Both the position numbers and the translations under genes were made by a program. Positions 2,924 through 13,456 of a stretch of 64,000 nucleotides of DNA are shown one piece after another. This stretch comes from Oleiharenicola sp. (GTDB lineage Bacteria > Verrucomicrobiota > Verrucomicrobiia > Opitutales > Opitutaceae), in NCBI GenBank assembly GCA_025363455.1, contig JANYDW010000048.1, forward strand, positions 56,962-120,961. The letters are read 5' to 3'. The notes under the pieces are model-generated. The model ran no database searches, was not told the DNA's origin, and saw nothing but the letters and a program-made list of their open reading frames with translations. Numbering within the stretch: position 1 is the first letter of the stretch; the number at the start of each line of letters is the position of its first letter.

Positions 2924-4405
2924 TCACCGAGCCGGCAACGCGATGAGCGTGCCGTCGAAACCGGCGGCGATGACTTTGTCCCCCGCCAGCGTGAGAGAGC
3001 CGGCGTAACCACCGAACCCCCCATCGGCCGCGAGGGGTGAAACCAGCTGCCAGATAACCGCCCCCGTCTTGCGATCCAACGCCACCAATCCGCCCTGATG
3101 TGCGATGAGCGTGCCCTCGATATTCTGCGACGCGGTCCCCGTGAAGACGTGTTCGGCGGTCACCAGCGGCGAACCCCAGTTCATGCCGTGGACCTCCGTC
3201 ACCCAGCGGGCCTGGCCGTTGGCCGGGTCGAGCACGACCACCCGGCTGTAATCCGAGGCGCCCACATAGAGCAGCCCGTCGCGCAGCACCGGGGTCGACT
3301 CGATCCACGAGAACCAATAAGAGTATTTCCACGCCACCGCGCCGCTCGCGAGGTTAAAGCCGTAGAGCAGGTAATCGCGACTGCCGACGATCAGCTTGTC
3401 CCCGGCGACAATGGGCGTAGTCACCACCCCACCGCCAGTATGGACACGCAGGGTTTCCTTCCGGGAGTGCCGGTCGAGCAGCACCACCGACCCATCCATC
3501 GTCCCAAACATGAGCGTGTCCGATCCATGCAAACCGACGCCCGAGTAGATCGGTGCGAGGGCGTCATGCCGCCAGAGTTTTTCCCCGGTCGCAGCGGCGA
3601 TGGCGTAGAGCCCTCCGTCGCTGGAGCCAATATAAAGCACCCCGTCGAGCAGCAGCGGCGTGGCGGCGCGGTGATTGAACGTGGGATTGACCGGCGCAGG
3701 TTTGCCCGCGATCCGCTCGTCATGTAGCGGCACGCTCCACCTCAATAAGCCGTCGGCGCGGTTGAGCGCGACGAGGTTGAACTTCGTGTCGAGGAAAAAA
3801 ACGCTGTCCGCGTTTACGACCGCTGCCCCGTCGATGGCGACATGGCCGGGCCAAACCCAACGCACGCTCCCGTCCGCGGCATTCACCGCGTGGAATTTGC
3901 CGTCGCCTGTACCGACGTAGATCATCGCTCCAGCCACGATCGGTGGGGCCCAGGTCCCGAAACCGAGGGAATGCCTCCAGAGCGGCGCCGGGGCGGGCGG
4001 ATGAACGGGCGCGGCCGGCTTTTCGGAAAACTTTCCGCCGCGCTTGAGCGCCAACGGCAACAGACCGGGACCAAATGTTCCGGTGAGCTGGTCCCCTTCT
4101 CGGTGCAGTTTGATGGCGAAAGCTTCCGTGATTGCGTAGTTTCCCTGCCCGTCCCCCTCGACCGGAATCGGGATGACGGCGTTATAGGTGAACATCGCCG
4201 GGAACTGCATCCGGAAAATCAGCGTACCGCGCTTGCTGCGGAAAAAATCCAGCCCGAACTCCGCCACGTCACCTTGGGGCGCGATGATGGTACCGGTCCA
4301 GCAACCCTCGAGGGGGTCGTGGGTTGGTGAGGCCGCCGGCGGTGCCGACTCCTGGGCCCAGCCGAAACTCAGCACCAGGACGAAAGGGAAAAGCCGAAGC
4401 CACAC
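2924..4405 (-). CDS. PQQ-like beta-propeller repeat protein (BamB-like), secreted
   Basis: Repeated blades such as WRHSLGFGTWAPPIVAGAMIYVGTGDGKFHAVNAADGSVRW; GTG at 4405 starts a signal peptide VWLRLFPFVLVLSFGWAQ; upstream 38 codons of the ORF are repeat DNA. Confidence 0.8.
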   Translation of the reverse strand: MWLRLFPFVLVLSFGWAQESAPPAASPTHDPLEGCWTGTIIAPQGDVAEFGLDFFRSKRGTLIFRMQFPAMFTYNAVIPIPVEGDGQGNYAITEAFAIKLHREGDQLTGTFGPGLLPLALKRGGKFSEKPAAPVHPPAPAPLWRHSLGFGTWAPPIVAGAMIYVGTGDGKFHAVNAADGSVRWVWPGHVAIDGAAVVNADSVFFLDTKFNLVALNRADGLLRWSVPLHDERIAGKPAPVNPTFNHRAATPLLLDGVLYIGSSDGGLYAIAAATGEKLWRHDALAPIYSGVGLHGSDTLMFGTMDGSVVLLDRHSRKETLRVHTGGGVVTTPIVAGDKLIVGSRDYLLYGFNLASGAVAWKYSYWFSWIESTPVLRDGLLYVGASDYSRVVVLDPANGQARWVTEVHGMNWGSPLVTAEHVFTGTASQNIEGTLIAHQGGLVALDRKTGAVIWQLVSPLAADGGFGGYAGSLTLAGDKVIAAGFDGTLIALPAR

Positions 4406-4510
4406 ACCCCGCCCTCCGGACACCCCTCTTGATAGAGGGGATTTCGTTACGACGGTTTGGGTCCCCTCTGGTGAGGGGTGGTCCCGCAGCCGCGGGACCG
4501 GGGTGTGTGG
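4401..4510. repeat. complex palindromic region (CACACACCCCG...CGGGGTGTGTGG outer arms)
   Basis: Read directly; contains further stems cccctctt-gat-agagggg and cccctctggtgagggg. Confidence 0.7.
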
Positions 4511-4528
4511 AAACGTCACGGAAGCGAG

Positions 4529-5309: not shown

Positions 5310-8090
5310 CTAGAACTTCGTGGCGAAAGTCAGGTAGTAGAGCCGCCCGATGGGACTGAACTCCGTGACGTCCGCATTCGAGAACGAATCGAACGTGGCC
5401 GACTTGGTCGGCAGACGGTTGGTGAAGTTCGTCACCCCTGCGGCCACCTTGACGGCCTTCAGATGTTTCCAGCCGGCCTTCCAATTGTACGACACGCTGG
5501 CATCGTAGGTTGAATAGGCGGGGATCTTTTGCTGGTATTCGGGCAGAGAATCCGGCGTCCAGGTCGTGTCGGTCGTACCGGTGTAGAACGTATGCCCCAA
5601 GTCGACCGTCCAGTTCTCCCGCTGCCAGCTGACCTGGTTGTAGAGCCGCCACCGCGGGATCGTGCCATTGAGCCCCGTGACCAGGCCGGCGGTCGGGGTG
5701 AAGGGAGCCCCCGGCGCGATCTGGATGTCGTAGTTCAGGTAGTAGGTGCCCATGCTCGATAACTTCAGCTTGCCACCCTCGGCCAGCTTCCAGGTGTATT
5801 CCAGCCGGGTGTCGAAGCCGGCCATCTTCTGGGTGCCGAGATTGCTCGCGGCCGGAATGACGAAGTAGAGGTTGTCGAGGCCGAGCTCCGAGATTTGTCC
5901 GGCATGGCTGATCGTCGGACCGGTAGCGGAACTGATATGGATGAGCGAGGCATAAGATGAAGCCGGGCCATTAACCTCGACGTCGTGGAAGACCTGGTCG
6001 ACTACCCCAGCCACCCCGAGGGAGTTGATAACGCCAGTCTGCTTCACATTGAAGTAATCGACGCTGAAGAGCAGGCTGGGAGCGTCCTTCGGCGACCAAA
6101 CGAAACCGGCCGAATAGTTGGTCGAGCGCGACGGGGCGAGGCTCTGCACTGCGGTGGTGACCTGCGCCGCCTGGTTGGTATCGAATTCGGCCAGCGAGTT
6201 GGTGAAGCCGATGGCGGTGGGCGAATTCAACTGGTAGAGCGTCGGGGCCTGGAACGACTTGGAAAAGCTAAACCGGAACAGCAGGTGGTCGTCGACGGGC
6301 AGGTAGCGCAGGGCAACCTTCGGGACCGTGGGATCGTCGGTGTCACTGTAGCGTTCGTAGCGCGCGGCCAGGGTCAGATCCGCGGAATAGATGCCCGGCA
6401 GCCGGTTTTTCGCGCCGACCAGCGGAATGTTCGTCTCGGCAAACACCGAGTTGACGTGTCTCTTCTGGTCAAACGGATCGGTCGAGGTGCCTCCGTCGTA
6501 GGCAAAAGTAGCCGACTGGCTGTCGACATCGGAGGCGGCGGTCAGCTTCTCCTGCCGGGATTCGAGGCCAACCGCGACGTTGACCCCGCCGGCGGGCAGC
6601 AGGATCAGGTCGCGACCCACGATTTTCACGTCGGCCGATACGAGGGTGCTGTTGAACTTGCCGATGGCCTGGCCGAACAGGCTGTCGATCGAGCCCGGCG
6701 TCTGCACGCGGTCGAAGAGTGCGATCTTGCCCGCCGCAACGGCTGCGATGCGCGCGGTCGTGCGGATGAGGCCACCGTTGACGAAGTCCTGCACGCCCCG
6801 GCTGTAGTCCAGGGCGCTTTCCCAGGACCACTGGTCGTTGAGCGTGCCTTTCAGGCCGAAGATGCCGCGCACTGAGTCGGTGTCAGCGGCGTAGGTGCGG
6901 GGGTGGTCCACGAAGCGGTTGCGCACGCTGACGTCCTGCCCCAGCACATTGCCAATAGCGCCGGCGCGCAACCGGACGTTGAGGGGCTGGGCATTGAGCT
7001 GTGACTGCGTCTTGGTTGACGAATAGAGGATGTCACCGAAATAACTGACCTTGCCCGAGGCCTTGCCCGAGAAGGAAACCGTGCCGATTTTTTTCTCGTT
7101 GCCGATGAGCATCGTCACGTAGTTCGCCAGGTCGAACTTCTGCAGGATCTGGCCGGTGGTGAAGGGCCCCGTATAACCGCGATCGGCCAGCGTGGCACCG
7201 GACTTCACCGAACTCACGCTCGGGTCGAGGAAGTAAAAGCCGTTGGGGTTGCCGACGAAGCCACCCGACGCAAAGCTGCCGACCTGGATGACGCCGGCAA
7301 ACTGGGTCGTACCATAAACCGGCGTGGCGAAGGGCCGCTGGTAGTTGATCAGGGGATCGGTCTTCACCCACTCGAACGAGGCCGTGACATTGGGGCCATT
7401 GGCCCCCATCTGGCCGCCCACCACGCCGTAGGCGGAGCGTTCCGAATAGTGGCCGGTGTTGTTGGTGAACGCATAGCGGCCCCCGGTCTCCACGCCCTCG
7501 AAACTGGACTTCAGGATAATGTTCACCACGCCGCTGACCGCATCGGTGCCGTAGATGGCCGAGGCGCCGTCGGTGAGAATTTCCACCCGCTCGATCGCCG
7601 CGACGGGAATGGAATTGACGTCAACAAACACGCCGCCGCCCGTGGCCCCAACCGGGGCGGAGGCCATGCGCCGGCCGTTGACGAGCACGAGGGTGGAGAG
7701 ATTGCGCAACGCCAAAGCGGAACCGCCATTGGTGGCGCCGCTGTTGATGTTGCCATTGGCGCCGCCGAGATTGCCGTTGCCGGTGAACTGCGGGGCGGTC
7801 TTGCGAATGACCTGGAGCAGGTCGCTGGTGATGCCGCTCTGCTCGATGATTTGCGGGGTCAGAATGGAGACCGGCGCCACCGGGGTGTCGCCTGCCATGG
7901 GCAGATTGGAACCGGTCACGACGAAGCGCTCGAGCTTCAACGTTTCATTGGTGTCGGAGGTTGGGAGATCCGTCGTCTTGGGCGCGGCCGTCTGGGCAAA
8001 AGCGGCCAGGGCCGCGAACAGGGGGATCGGCAGGAACGCCCGACGGCGCGCGCTGCCACCCCACCGGTGTGTGGTGTGTGTGGTGTTCAT
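5310..8090 (-). CDS. TonB-dependent outer membrane receptor
   Basis: Plug domain (RNLSTLVLVNGRRM, VERVEILTDGASAIYGTDAVSGVVNIIL) and C-terminal aromatic beta-strand YYLTFATKF. Confidence 0.93.
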   Translation of the reverse strand: MNTTHTTHRWGGSARRRAFLPIPLFAALAAFAQTAAPKTTDLPTSDTNETLKLERFVVTGSNLPMAGDTPVAPVSILTPQIIEQSGITSDLLQVIRKTAPQFTGNGNLGGANGNINSGATNGGSALALRNLSTLVLVNGRRMASAPVGATGGGVFVDVNSIPVAAIERVEILTDGASAIYGTDAVSGVVNIILKSSFEGVETGGRYAFTNNTGHYSERSAYGVVGGQMGANGPNVTASFEWVKTDPLINYQRPFATPVYGTTQFAGVIQVGSFASGGFVGNPNGFYFLDPSVSSVKSGATLADRGYTGPFTTGQILQKFDLANYVTMLIGNEKKIGTVSFSGKASGKVSYFGDILYSSTKTQSQLNAQPLNVRLRAGAIGNVLGQDVSVRNRFVDHPRTYAADTDSVRGIFGLKGTLNDQWSWESALDYSRGVQDFVNGGLIRTTARIAAVAAGKIALFDRVQTPGSIDSLFGQAIGKFNSTLVSADVKIVGRDLILLPAGGVNVAVGLESRQEKLTAASDVDSQSATFAYDGGTSTDPFDQKRHVNSVFAETNIPLVGAKNRLPGIYSADLTLAARYERYSDTDDPTVPKVALRYLPVDDHLLFRFSFSKSFQAPTLYQLNSPTAIGFTNSLAEFDTNQAAQVTTAVQSLAPSRSTNYSAGFVWSPKDAPSLLFSVDYFNVKQTGVINSLGVAGVVDQVFHDVEVNGPASSYASLIHISSATGPTISHAGQISELGLDNLYFVIPAASNLGTQKMAGFDTRLEYTWKLAEGGKLKLSSMGTYYLNYDIQIAPGAPFTPTAGLVTGLNGTIPRWRLYNQVSWQRENWTVDLGHTFYTGTTDTTWTPDSLPEYQQKIPAYSTYDASVSYNWKAGWKHLKAVKVAAGVTNFTNRLPTKSATFDSFSNADVTEFSPIGRLYYLTFATKF

Positions 8091-8391
8091 GCGATTTGCG
8101 TGTGTGTGGGCAACCGGAACAGGGTCTGTCCCGGTTGTTGCGATGATATGACACGCTTTGCGCCGAGCCGCACAATCGTGGTGCGACAGGCCTACAATAT
8201 GGCGACCTCAGTCGCGATTTCCGCTGCATGAATGCGCGTCTGCGCGCGATCTGGGGTGAAACGCCCTGTTCCCCAGTGCGTTTTTCGAATCCGGCGCATG
8301 GAGGAACAACGCCCTCCGCCTTTCTCCAGCGGCTGTGCCTTTGACCAGCCCGCTGCAAAACGCGTTGGGGTCAGCGCGTTCCACCCAATAT

Positions 8392-9207
8392 TCAGAGATG
8401 CGCCTTGAGCTCGTGCACAAAGGTGCGGCTCACCCGCAGTTTCATACCATTGGTCAGCTCAACGCTGTACTCCCCATAGAGGGCCGGGCCCGTCTTCTTC
8501 ATGTGGCGGAGATTCACGATCGTCGAGCGGTGGATGCGCACAAAGTGCTTGGGATCGAGCTTCTCCATCATTTTCTGCAACGACATCCGCACAAACCGTG
8601 ACTTGTCCGTCAAATGAAGCCTTACGTAATCACCGTCGGACTCGATCCACAGGATGTCGTCGGGGGAGAGCATGTGGATCTCGCCATCGCAGCGGATGAA
8701 GAGCCGGCGATCGTCCTCGTGCGACCGGGCCGCAGCGAGGCCCTCCCCGGTGGCCCCGCGGGCCTTGAGCCGCTGCAGGGCCGCCATGATGTCGTCGAGG
8801 CGCTTGCTGAGATCGTGCTGGTCGCGGTTGCGCACGGCGGATTTCGCCCGGCTGAGTGCTTCGGAGAAACGGGCGCGGTTGAAGGGCTTGAGGACATAGT
8901 CGACCGCATGAACCTCGAAGGCCTGCAGGGCGAACTGCTCGTGCGCGGTGACAAACACCACCTGGGGGAGGGACGTCATCGGCAACTTGGCGAGCACCTC
9001 AAAGCCGGTGATGCCCGGCATCTGCACATCGAGGAAGAGCAGCTCGGGCCGTTGCTGTTTAATGGCCTCGATGGCCTGGGGGCCGTTGCCGCATTGGGCG
9101 ATGACCTGGATGTCTGGATCGGGCCGCAGCAGGGCCTCGATATTTTGCCGGGCCAGGATCTCGTCGTCGACAATCATGGTCCGGATGATGGCGGTGGTCG
9201 TAGTCAT
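8392..9207 (-). CDS. LytTR-family response regulator
   Basis: Receiver (TMIVDDEILARQNIE, LLFLDVQMPG, KPF) plus LytTR domain (DYVRLHLTDKSRFVRMSLQKMMEKLDPKHFVRIHRSTIVNLRHM). Confidence 0.93.
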   Translation of the reverse strand: MTTTTAIIRTMIVDDEILARQNIEALLRPDPDIQVIAQCGNGPQAIEAIKQQRPELLFLDVQMPGITGFEVLAKLPMTSLPQVVFVTAHEQFALQAFEVHAVDYVLKPFNRARFSEALSRAKSAVRNRDQHDLSKRLDDIMAALQRLKARGATGEGLAAARSHEDDRRLFIRCDGEIHMLSPDDILWIESDGDYVRLHLTDKSRFVRMSLQKMMEKLDPKHFVRIHRSTIVNLRHMKKTGPALYGEYSVELTNGMKLRVSRTFVHELKAHL

Positions 9208-10340
9208 GGGACGGGTCGGAGGGTAAATGGCAGGGTGATGCGGGCCATGACGCCGCGCGGGGGTTGGTCGCGCAATTCGAACCTGGCCTCGTGTTCGTAG
9301 AGCATGTGCAGCCGGGCGCGGGTGTTCTGTAAGCCGATGCCCGATCCGCTGACCAGTTCGTCCCGCGGCAGCGCGGGCCCGTCGTTGTAGACGGTGAGCA
9401 CCAGCTGGGACTTTACCCGGCGGGCGCTGAGACGGAGCAGGCGGGCGTCCGGGTCACGCGAAATGCCGTGCTTCATGGCATTCTCCGCCAACGGCTGGAG
9501 CATCAGACTGGGCACCAACGCCGGCAGGCACTCAGGCATGATGTCGTACTCAACCTGCAGCCGGTCCTGAAAGCGGACCCGTTCGATCTCAAAGTAGCGG
9601 CGGACAAAATCCAACTCGCGCTCCAGCGTATCCATCGCCTCCTGCCGGTGCTCGAGGGCCCGGCGCAGGAGTTCACCCAGCCCGGCCACCACCTCCTCCG
9701 CCTCCGGCGAGCGGTTGTTGCGGATGAGACTCGTGATGGAGTTCAAGGTGTTGAAGAGGAAATGGGGATGCAGCTGCATCTTCAGCGCATCAAGGCTGGC
9801 GCGCACCAGGCGGGTCTCGAGCCGGGCGTTGGCAACGCGCAGTTCGCTCGTGAGCAACTGCCCCACGCGCCACTCCCGGTAGAAGCTGGCCGCATAAAGG
9901 GCAATGATCGCCATCCAGTAGATCAGCAACGGCGTATAGTCCCAACGTCCCACGGTCTTCAGGTCATGGGTGATCACCGGCAGGTAGGCCCACGGCAGGT
10001 GGTTGGACACCAGCAACCGAATCGCGTCGAGCAGCACGAAGCAGCCCGTGATGACCACTGCCATCACGACGTGCAGCATCAACGACCACAACCAGCGGCG
10101 GTCGAGCAGTGTCAGGCGGCCTTGTAGCCAGATGACCAGCGGGGCCAGGAACCACCAGAACACGGCCGGCGGCCACTCATTCAGGCGCGTGTAACGGAAC
10201 GAGGCGTCCGGGGAACCGGCCAGCCACGAGCGTGCATCCCACAGCAGGAAACCAAGCAATCCCAGCGAGCCGGTCAGCCAAAGCACTCCCCAGAACCGCC
10301 AATCGCGCAGATAAACGGTCCAGGGGTGATCCCGGTTCAT
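9204..10340 (-). CDS. LytS/YehU-type sensor histidine kinase (His_kinase family), about 4 N-terminal TM segments, no obvious extracytoplasmic sensor domain
   Basis: ALKMQLHPHFLFNTLNSITSLIR H-box, PLAENAMKHGI N-box, GIGLQNTRARL; ATG at 10340; stop overlaps the regulator start by 4 nt. Confidence 0.92.
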   Translation of the reverse strand: MNRDHPWTVYLRDWRFWGVLWLTGSLGLLGFLLWDARSWLAGSPDASFRYTRLNEWPPAVFWWFLAPLVIWLQGRLTLLDRRWLWSLMLHVVMAVVITGCFVLLDAIRLLVSNHLPWAYLPVITHDLKTVGRWDYTPLLIYWMAIIALYAASFYREWRVGQLLTSELRVANARLETRLVRASLDALKMQLHPHFLFNTLNSITSLIRNNRSPEAEEVVAGLGELLRRALEHRQEAMDTLERELDFVRRYFEIERVRFQDRLQVEYDIMPECLPALVPSLMLQPLAENAMKHGISRDPDARLLRLSARRVKSQLVLTVYNDGPALPRDELVSGSGIGLQNTRARLHMLYEHEARFELRDQPPRGVMARITLPFTLRPVP

Positions 10341-12006
10341 AGCGATCCCCCCCCCCCCCAACCGGGTGGTCGTGCGGTAGCGGACGGATCGCAAGCCGCT
10401 TCAACGACTGACGGCCGAGCGGATCGGCATACCATCCGTCCACCTCGATCGCCAGCAGGGTGCGCCGGCGTTCAAACATGGTCGGGATCGTCGGTACTGC
10501 ATCCATGACGGTGCGCTCCACCTGCTCCAGCAGCGCCAGACGTTCGGACCCCACCTTGCAATCCGCCAACGCGATGAGCCGGTTGACCTCGGAATTTTCC
10601 CAATGGGTGGCGTTGTAGACTCCGGGCAGGGTAAACGTCGCGAGCATGTCGCCGGCATCGGGCACGGTGGCCAGCAGGCCGTTGTAGAAAATATCGTACT
10701 CGCCCGTGGCCATGCGTTGCTTGCGTTCCAAATCCTTGTCGAAGGCCAGATAAGTGCGGATGCCCAGCTCGCGATACCAGCGTTCCGTCCATGCCTGCAA
10801 ATACGCATAGCGCGGCCAGGCCGGCGCCACCGGCACAACCAGCACGGGGAACCCCTGCCCGCCCGGATAACCGGCTTCGGCCAGCAGATGACGGGCCTCC
10901 GCAGCGTTTTCGTGGAGCAAGGCAAGTCCGGGGCGGCCGGGCATGTCGGGCACCCACGCAAAAGCCGGCACCATGTTCTCGCTGTCCTGGGTCGGAATGG
11001 AACCGGCCCGGTCCAGGGCCAGGGACAAGGCCCGGCGCACCCGCAGATCCTGTAACGGTCCGTGGCTTACATTAAGATCGAGTGCGGTCACCAGCAGGGG
11101 CATTTCGATCGCTTCCGTGACACAGCGGGCCGTGGGCGCCTCCGCCGGCCCTCCGCTCGGGACCGGTGCCGTCATGTCCACGCGACCGGCCGCGACCAGC
11201 AGTTGCGCCATGCTCGGATTATCGACCCGGATGAACTCGGCCCCGGCCAATCGCACCGCCGCCCGGCCGTGATAATGCGGCGAGGCGCGCAGGCGGAAGC
11301 CCTCCAGACCGGCGCGCTCCAAGCAAAAAGCGCCGTTGCCGATCAATTTCTCCGGGTGCCGCCAAAACTCCTGCGCCTTGAGCACAGCCGCCGTCGACTC
11401 ATGCATCGGGGCCAGCAGTGGATCGGCCAGCTCGGACACCAAGGTCGAGCGGACGCCCGCCAGGGTCAGCCTTAGTGTTCGGTCGTCCACCGCCGTCACA
11501 CCCACTGCTGCCGGGTCTTGGGTCTGGCCGCGATGAAATGCTTCGGCGTTTTTAAGCGGAAACAAGGTCGAAGCCGTTTCCGTGTTCTGACGCAGCAACC
11601 GCCGCCAACCGCGGACAAAATCCTGTGCCGTCACCGGTTCGCCATTGCTCCAACGACCATCGGCGCGAAGCTTGAGGGTCAGGACCAGGCGGTCCTCGGA
11701 CCACGCCCAGCTCTCCGCCGCCGCAGGCCGCGGCTGGCCGGTTTCGGGGTCACATTCGATGAGCGGCTCCCACAGACCGAGGATGAACTGGTTCTGCGCC
11801 GGAAGGGGAAACGTGCGCACGTGCGGATCGGGCAGCAACCGCTGGAGGCAGGCGATCCGGAGGATGTTTCCGTCTTCCGCTGCCCGGGGCAGGACCGGCA
11901 GCAAACGCCGCGGCCCGAGAATGACCGCCAGCAGCAAACCGCCCACGCCGGCCAGGGCCAGCGTGGTCCACCAGTGGACACGGGAACTCGCGGTCATCGG
12001 TTGCAA
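10337..12006 (-). CDS. membrane-anchored OppA/SBP_bac_5-type substrate-binding protein (3' end frame-ambiguous at G tract)
   Basis: N-terminal TM (HWWTTLALAGVGGLLLAVIL) then SBP_bac_5 core (LWEPLIECDPETGQPRPAAAESW, WSNGEPVTAQDFVRGWRR). The ORF as given runs to 10177 inside the kinase gene; with 11 or 14 G the stop would be TGA at 10337-10339. Confidence 0.85.
10347..10359. repeat. 13-nt homopolymeric C (+) / G (-) tract at the SBP-kinase junction
   Basis: Read directly: agcgat-CCCCCCCCCCCCC-aaccggg; 6 nt upstream of the kinase ATG on the minus strand. Confidence 0.95.
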
Positions 12007-12110
12007 AGGATGCGGCCCACAAGGGCAGACCGGGCAATGTTTGGCCCCCCGGTCACAACCGGCGGGTTAATTGCGATGAAACGCCAGTTTTCCGCGCCGA
12101 ACGGCAGAAA

Positions 12111-13337
12111 TCAGGCCTTGGGGCCGCCTTGCGCGAAATAACGGGCGCGCAATCGCAGGCCGTTCAGCCGGATGAAGCCCGTGGAGTCACTCTGATTGTA
12201 CCAAGACTTCACGCCCTCCATGGACGCGATGTTCATGTCGTAGAGCGAATACTTCGATTTCCGGCCGCAGGTGATGATGTTGCCCTTGTAGAGCTTGAGG
12301 CGAACGGTGCCCGTGACGTGCTTTTGCGATTCGTCCACCAGCGCCTGCAGGGCCTCGCGCTCGGGCGCGAACCAGAACCCGTAATAAACCAGCTCGGCGT
12401 ACTTCGGGATGAGCGAATCGCGCAGGTGCATGACTTCGCGGTCCATCGTCAGCGATTCGACTTGGCGATGGGCCTGCATGAGGATCGTGCCGCCGGGCGT
12501 CTCGTAGACCCCGCGGGACTTCATGCCGACAAACCGGTTCTCAACCAGGTCGACGCGGCCGATGCCGTGCTTGCCGCCGAGCTTGTTGAGCGCCTTGAGC
12601 ACACCGGCCGGGGAAAGCTTCCGGCCGTTCACGGCCACGCAGTTGCCCTGCACGAAATCGAGCTCCACGTATTCGGGCCGGTTCGGCGCATCTTCGGGCG
12701 AGACGGAAAGCTTGAACATGCCTTTGTTGGCCTTGGTGGTCGGGTCGAACCACGGATCCTCGAGGATACCGGCCTCGTACGAGATGTGCAGGAGATTGCG
12801 ATCCATCGAATAGGGCTTCTTGAGCGAGGCCTCGACCGGGATGCGGTGCTCGCGGCAATACTCGATCATCTCGGCCCGGCCGGGAAATTCATCGCGGAAC
12901 TTTTCGATCTTCCACGGTGCCAATATCGTGAGTCGCGGATTGAGTGCCATGTAGGTCAGTTCAAACCGGCACTGATCGTTGCCCTTGCCCGTTGCTCCGT
13001 GCGCCACGGTGTCCGCCTTTTCCCGTTTCGCGATCTCAACCTGGGCTTTCGCAATGAGGGGCCGGGCGATCGAGGTGCCGAGGTAATATTGCCCTTCGTA
13101 AATCGCGTTGGCCCGGATCATGGGGTAGATGAAGTCCCGGGCGAATTCCTCCACGAGGTCGAGGGTATAATGCTTGGTCGCCCCCGTTTTTCTCGCCTTG
13201 GCGGGCAAGCCTTTTAGCTCCTCCTCCTGTCCGATGTCCGCGGCGAAAGTGACAATTTCCGCGTCGTAGGTCTCCTTGAGCCATTTGACTATGACCGAGG
13301 TGTCGAGGCCGCCTGAGTAAGCGAGAACGATCTTCAT
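12111..13337 (-). CDS. argG: argininosuccinate synthase
   Basis: [43 protein letters not shown] 13337. Confidence 0.96.
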
Positions 13338-13456
13338 GATGGCTCGGCAGTGTTGGCGATAGCCTCCGCCGCGCAAAGTAAAAATGCCGTATGCCTTCCA
13401 TTTGGCCGCCACAGTATTGCTTTTCCAAGCCGCCCGGAGGATGCTGGCTTACTCCC

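Follow-up and report, generated by a model that had tools for sequence, protein, structure and literature searches.

The XylFII-LytS system combines a sugar-type binding protein (SBP) with an AraC-type regulator. In this D-xylose system of Clostridium beijerinckii, as cited in PMC10384115 and PMC9769921, the extracytoplasmic binding protein acts through the kinase LytS, which has a four-helix periplasmic domain (PDB 5XSJ). The cellobiose system CuaDSR of Ruminiclostridium cellulolyticum uses a dedicated signalling SBP, distinct from the transport SBP, to control an uptake operon (PMC10384115). LytS/LytTR pairs that control a transporter gene are represented in Escherichia coli by BtsS/BtsR and YpdA/YpdB, and YpdB was found to bind a direct repeat (PMC5552118, PMC4847170). 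These pairs have no SBP, and BtsS, a receptor with seven TM helices, binds pyruvate directly (PMC10653868). In the GlnH-GlnX-PknG system of Corynebacterium, an SBP signals via a four-TM membrane protein encoded adjacent to it (PMC9769921). In the SBP-kinase systems compared here from the literature, the kinase has a sizeable extracytoplasmic domain and the SBPs belong to families other than that of OppA. To our knowledge, Verrucomicrobiota carry many TonB receptors, the regulation of which is mostly unknown.

The window, the 64,000-nucleotide stretch of DNA analysed here, belongs to an assembly of 4.2 Mb in 83 contigs, and this genome was itself scanned with the patterns and families described below. 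On the minus strand, the window contains in order argG, an SBP_bac_5 gene, a LytS-type kinase gene, a LytTR regulator gene and a TonB-dependent receptor gene. The SBP, kinase and regulator genes (the trio) form a single overlapping operon. The features are as follows.

12111-13412, minus strand: argG, the upstream neighbour of the trio
12071-12107, minus strand: two-box direct-repeat operator (TTCGGCGC / GCGTTTCATCGC, period 21), 37 nt, predicted with a leave-one-out matrix; located between the argG stop and the trio, close behind the former
10338-11997, minus strand: SBP_bac_5 (OppA-type) protein with a predicted uncleaved N-terminal anchor (Pfam, 10 orthologues, SBP-kinase junctions)
11914-11970, minus strand: signal anchor of the SBP, a 19-residue TM segment (residues ~10-28)
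10666-10668, minus strand: codon of Thr444, the equivalent of OppA Asp419, which anchors the peptide N-terminus (alignment to 2z23 and paralogues)
10347-10359, minus strand (C13 on the plus strand): G13 tract that pushes the SBP off its natural end, probably a sequencing/assembly or slippage change
9204-10340, minus strand: LytS-type histidine kinase with four TM helices and two conserved short periplasmic loops (Pfam, structure model, loop alignment)
8392-9207, minus strand: LytTR response regulator (Pfam), the start of which overlaps the kinase stop by 4 nt
8171-8217, minus strand: element upstream of the TonB receptor, comprising a weaker two-box match (8181-8217) and the block GTCGCACCACGATTGTG (8171-8187)
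5310-8090, minus strand: TonB-dependent receptor (Pfam), the probable target gene, with conserved promoter and signal peptide and a variable barrel

An earlier note on this DNA had described an SBP with an N-terminal TM segment and no lipobox cysteine, a kinase with about four TM helices and no extracytoplasmic sensor domain, a TonB receptor downstream on the same strand, and a window free of Opp permease genes. All of these were borne out. One coordinate was in error: the SBP does not end naturally at 10177, a frame artefact of the G13 tract given that the relatives end at the kinase start. The kinase starts at ATG 10340 rather than at TTG 10394.

The trio resembles XylFII-LytS in the proposed input of an extracytoplasmic SBP into a kinase named LytS, and it resembles CuaDSR in that a putative signalling SBP is encoded with a kinase and a regulator. 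The XylFII-LytS kinase has its four-helix domain where the trio kinase has two loops of ~25 residues, and the trio has an OppA-type SBP and a LytTR regulator. CuaDSR has a lipoprotein, CuaD, as its SBP and a kinase, CuaS, with an extracellular domain, and its target is an ABC importer instead of a TonB receptor. GlnX has two periplasmic domains of ~155 residues and no kinase domain, and its SBP is of another family. The trio kinase carries His_kinase (PF06580) and HATPase_c (PF02518) domains and the regulator Response_reg and LytTR domains, the composition of a LytS/LytTR two-component system. Among NCBIfam models the regulator comes closest to BtsR, but the score of 177.7 bits falls below the equivalog cut-off of 246, and the kinase has four TM helices as opposed to the seven of the pyruvate-binding BtsS, so that the pair lies outside BtsS/BtsR. 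Since the trio kinase lacks an extracytoplasmic domain and the SBP family and regulator type are others, the trio is a variant that belongs to neither XylFII-LytS nor CuaDSR. The principle of SBP-kinase sensing is already known from those two systems; the version of it found in the trio is new.

We propose, with a probability of roughly 0.7, that the trio is a ligand-sensing three-component system that regulates itself and probably induces the TonB receptor. From the sequences we infer that an OppA-like SBP would sit in the inner membrane, fixed by an anchor that is not cleaved, and face the periplasm, where it would bind a small-molecule ligand, dock on the four-TM LytS kinase at its two short periplasmic loops, and alter kinase activity depending on the ligand. 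The kinase would phosphorylate the LytTR regulator, which would bind the two-box operator upstream of the trio, giving autoregulation, and the related element upstream of the TonB-dependent receptor gene. The receptor would be an importer probably matched to the sensed nutrient. If this is true, dedicated sensors are also to be found in the large and abundant OppA family, and a tethered SBP can provide the input of a minimal kinase. A candidate operator and a candidate target are now on offer for LytS/LytTR pairs of Verrucomicrobiota.

Conservation of the trio and the SBP-kinase junction

Within the genus (Lacunisphaera), the trio was present in 10 of 21 genomes, and the other 11 had neither an SBP nor a kinase orthologue. 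The SBP orthologues of the nine other genomes showed 50-67% identity (the next tier ~38% or less), and kinase orthologues, at 62-79% identity, occurred in exactly the same ten genomes as the SBP. The order SBP-kinase-regulator was identical in all ten loci, nine of them behind argG; the trio at L042 lies in a different chromosomal context without argG, and L036 and L042 have no downstream TonB gene. A kinase profile run against 252 family genomes returned four further full-length relatives. Three of these belong to genus g40 (L146-L148) and have an adjacent SBP and the same gene order, with identities of 32-34% for the SBP and ~48% for the kinase; for the fourth, the contig begins inside the kinase gene. 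No further relatives outside these genera turned up among 223 genomes of the order. A scan of public genomes with the SBP gave a Lacunisphaera MAG as the nearest match and otherwise only distant proteobacterial matches. The trio SBPs form one clade and the trio kinases form one clade (both 100/99), and their branching is congruent in the main. The kinase tree contained 23 of 31 rows, eight SBP-less paralogues having been removed by a motif filter. At L147 and L148, a kinase-regulator-TonB set without an SBP stands between argG and the SBP trio plus TonB gene; the adjacency of kinase loci to argG is kept across genera.

The earlier note had taken the SBP to be the sensory input of the kinase rather than a transport component, had called for a search for conservation of the trio, and had named two findings that would speak against this: SBP homologues encoded beside Opp permeases, and kinase homologues encoded without the SBP. 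The search recovered the SBP, kinase and regulator as a conserved unit in the ten Lacunisphaera genomes and in g40, a second genus of Opitutaceae. Opp permeases were never seen beside an SBP of the trio clade, and full-length kinases of the clade were always accompanied by an SBP where the contig continues.

The open reading frame of the SBP crosses the 13 G of the tract and then reads out of frame across the kinase gene. This tract is the sole G run of at least 11 in the interior of the 4.2-Mb genome. The SBP stop and the kinase start overlap by 4 nt in 12 of 12 relatives with a visible junction (ATGA, or GTGA in L036), and no G or C run of at least 7 was found within the trio in the nine Lacunisphaera relatives; the SBP should therefore end near 10337-10360, its stop being expected at a TGA that overlaps the ATG of the kinase. 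Its conserved part ends at ~10363. Judged against the relatives, the last ~60 residues of the SBP (10177-10359) are an artefact of the tract, and the simplest reading of the tract is an assembly error or recent slippage. From the sequence, 12 G would give an SBP-kinase fusion, 13 G the long tail, and 11 or 14 G the ATGA overlap. These three outcomes, and the lack of any other long G run in the genome interior, would suit a phase-variation switch between fusion, tail and coupling. Such a switch is hardly credible, as G runs of at least 7 are absent from the other Lacunisphaera trio loci, the fusion would put SBP and kinase on topologically clashing sides of the four-TM domain, and the evidence is a single draft assembly. 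A direct SBP-kinase fusion, in which the removal of one G joins the frames, was likewise considered and rejected because the relatives have two overlapping genes; the cytoplasmic N-terminus of a four-TM kinase also cannot carry a periplasmic N-terminal domain. As a separate observation, a chromosome-level record (G016:C1:1-128) opens with more than 100 identical bases (C on the plus strand), an assembly artefact.

The binding protein, the kinase and competing explanations

The SBP starts at ATG 11997 and matches Pfam SBP_bac_5 with an E value of 1.7e-51. It shares the fold of OppA peptide-transport SBPs, as indicated by Pfam, by its PDB matches, the best of which (OppA, MppA and DppE) are of the same fold and Pfam family, and by a structure model built from 10 sequences that is of modest to moderate confidence (pLDDT 63). 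OppA, MppA and DppE are transport SBPs with an Asp that binds the peptide N-terminus, whereas the trio SBP has a signal anchor and a Thr. A lipoprotein-type Cys ends the signal peptide in most complete OppA-type paralogues of the family; in 13 of 13 trio SBPs there is instead a single hydrophobic anchor with no lipobox and no Cys nearby. By sequence pattern the anchor is uncleaved, with no visible SPI site, and the charges flanking it favour neither orientation. In OppA, Asp419 hydrogen-bonds the peptide N-terminus (PMC5736914). All ten Lacunisphaera trio SBPs have Thr at the equivalent position, where 23 of 24 paralogues have Asp and the g40 SBPs Ser or Asp. With the Asp retained at two g40 loci, the class of ligand may vary between trios. 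The segment around this position is strongly conserved, ATVPDAGD being nearly invariant in the ten Lacunisphaera trios. No OppB or OppC relative was found in the window or at the trio loci, and the SBP is thus outside any neighbouring ABC importer. OppB and OppC are encoded elsewhere in the genome (G000 contig C20), where two other SBPs with lipoprotein-like signals accompany them.

Hydropathy and alignment, together with a structure model, gave four TM helices for the kinase and only two periplasmic loops of 24-27 residues, at residues 35-58 and 108-134, in place of an extracytoplasmic docking domain of the XylFII-LytS or CuaDSR type. The loops are more conserved (0.61-0.64) than the TM helices (0.46-0.54). 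In the trio kinases they carry the motifs FR.T.L and N.LP; FR and N.LP are present in 13 of 13 trio kinases and in none of 18 SBP-less paralogues. Conserved, clade-specific loops of this kind fit a docking surface but do not prove one, and the loop motifs and the lost lipidation could be clade traits unconnected with docking. Operon coupling, lost lipidation, the changed peptide-binding Asp, clade-specific loops and congruent trees together argue for a sensor role of the SBP, as opposed to a role in transport.

Three other explanations were weighed against this sensor role. The kinase might sense directly through its membrane helices, in which case the SBP would be no more than a scavenger, transcribed along with the kinase as one more member of the regulon. 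The 7-TM LytS-type BtsS does bind pyruvate without an SBP (PMC10653868), and many related LytS/LytTR pairs of the family have the same operator and no SBP. We nevertheless consider this unlikely, given that the trio kinase clade always occurs with the SBP where the contig continues, that its members have periplasmic loop motifs of their own, and that the SBP has neither a nearby permease partner nor a lipid anchor. The SBP_bac_5 fold of the OppA/MppA type and the presence of OppB/OppC in the genome would also allow a transport protein that feeds the distant permease on contig C20 or some other importer, with the kinase and regulator merely controlling it. This is very unlikely: the C20 permeases already have two adjoining SBPs, whose signals are lipoprotein-like, the trio SBP has lost the lipobox, any visible SPI site and Asp419, and its presence tracks that of the kinase.

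The replacement of the ligand-anchoring Asp by Thr, and the chaperone-like activity described for some OppA proteins (PMC7442780), would be compatible with a ligand-free structural or chaperone-like kinase subunit, for example a stabiliser or a sensor of envelope state. Against this stands the pocket segment ATVPDAGD, the near-invariance of which in ten of ten trios is expected of a used site, and a ligand-free subunit appears quite improbable.

Operator elements and the TonB receptor

LytTR regulators bind paired direct repeats (PMC4847170, PMC4227749). The 37-bp two-box element was found upstream of the SBP in all ten Lacunisphaera loci, and its period-21 boxes form a predicted paired direct repeat with a spacing of about two helical turns. 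With leave-one-out matrices, the trio operator ranked first in every locus; in the window it was the best of ~128,000 positions, and nothing as good occurred in 355,446 background positions. The matrix was tested independently on 16 LytS/LytTR loci without an SBP, the majority belonging to other genera. Every one of the seven hits with a score above 18 was located either close behind the regulator or a short way upstream of the kinase (binomial p 3e-11), and this supports the two-box element as operator for the LytTR group as a whole. The right-hand box alone had 12 exact matches in 14 genomes, half of them at trio loci, and is not fully specific; a decoy two-box pattern with a spacer one base short gave only chance-level matches in the 14 genomes. 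The SBP-less LytS/LytTR pairs at L150, L153-L156, L159 and L161 are preceded by the same two-box operator and often followed by a TonB receptor. No published description of this family-wide type of LytS/LytTR regulon was found.

The TonB receptor had also been suggested as a target of the LytTR regulator. A weaker, related element does lie upstream of the receptor gene, but the matrix match is weak when taken alone (region p 0.04 in the window; spacing ~19-23 versus 21). In 7 of 8 loci, a weaker, aligned element gives the best matrix match in front of the TonB gene. Adjoining the matrix match is a block, GTCGCACSRNNATTGWG, whose exact copies in 14 genomes are confined to trio loci; copies with one mismatch elsewhere fall mostly within coding sequence. 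TonB plug matches number 30 in the window genome. The aligned match, together with a block exact at trio loci alone despite so many TonB plugs, makes control of the receptor likely, though less firmly shown than autoregulation.

The TonB receptors of the eight loci share 60% identity over their first 34 residues and 32% over the remainder. Their barrels differ strongly (window locus, L035, L037-L041, L043), with identities of 26-40% for most pairs. Closer pairs are L038/L040 (81%) and L039/L043 (67%), whereas the SBP and kinase trees pair L038 with L039. This kinship of the barrels is at odds with the SBP and kinase trees and suggests barrel exchange at one fixed position under regulation, where the promoter and signal peptide seem to have stayed while the barrel behind them was replaced. 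A broader picture, which we put forward tentatively and at slightly less than even odds, is that an OppA-type protein has turned into a receptor subunit that is tethered to the membrane, takes no part in transport and signals via two minimal loops of a four-TM LytS kinase without a sensor domain. This unit would control a site at which TonB barrels have been exchanged while the promoter and signal peptide stayed constant, which would give Opitutaceae a modular sense-and-import locus.

Downstream of the TonB receptor, the window encodes a PQQ/BamB-type beta-propeller protein (2924-4519), which is also found near the trio in L037 and L041. The TonB promoter block (8157-8190) contains a small CGGCnATTGnGCCG-like dyad with seemingly compensatory variation between loci, which could represent either an RNA hairpin or a further operator.
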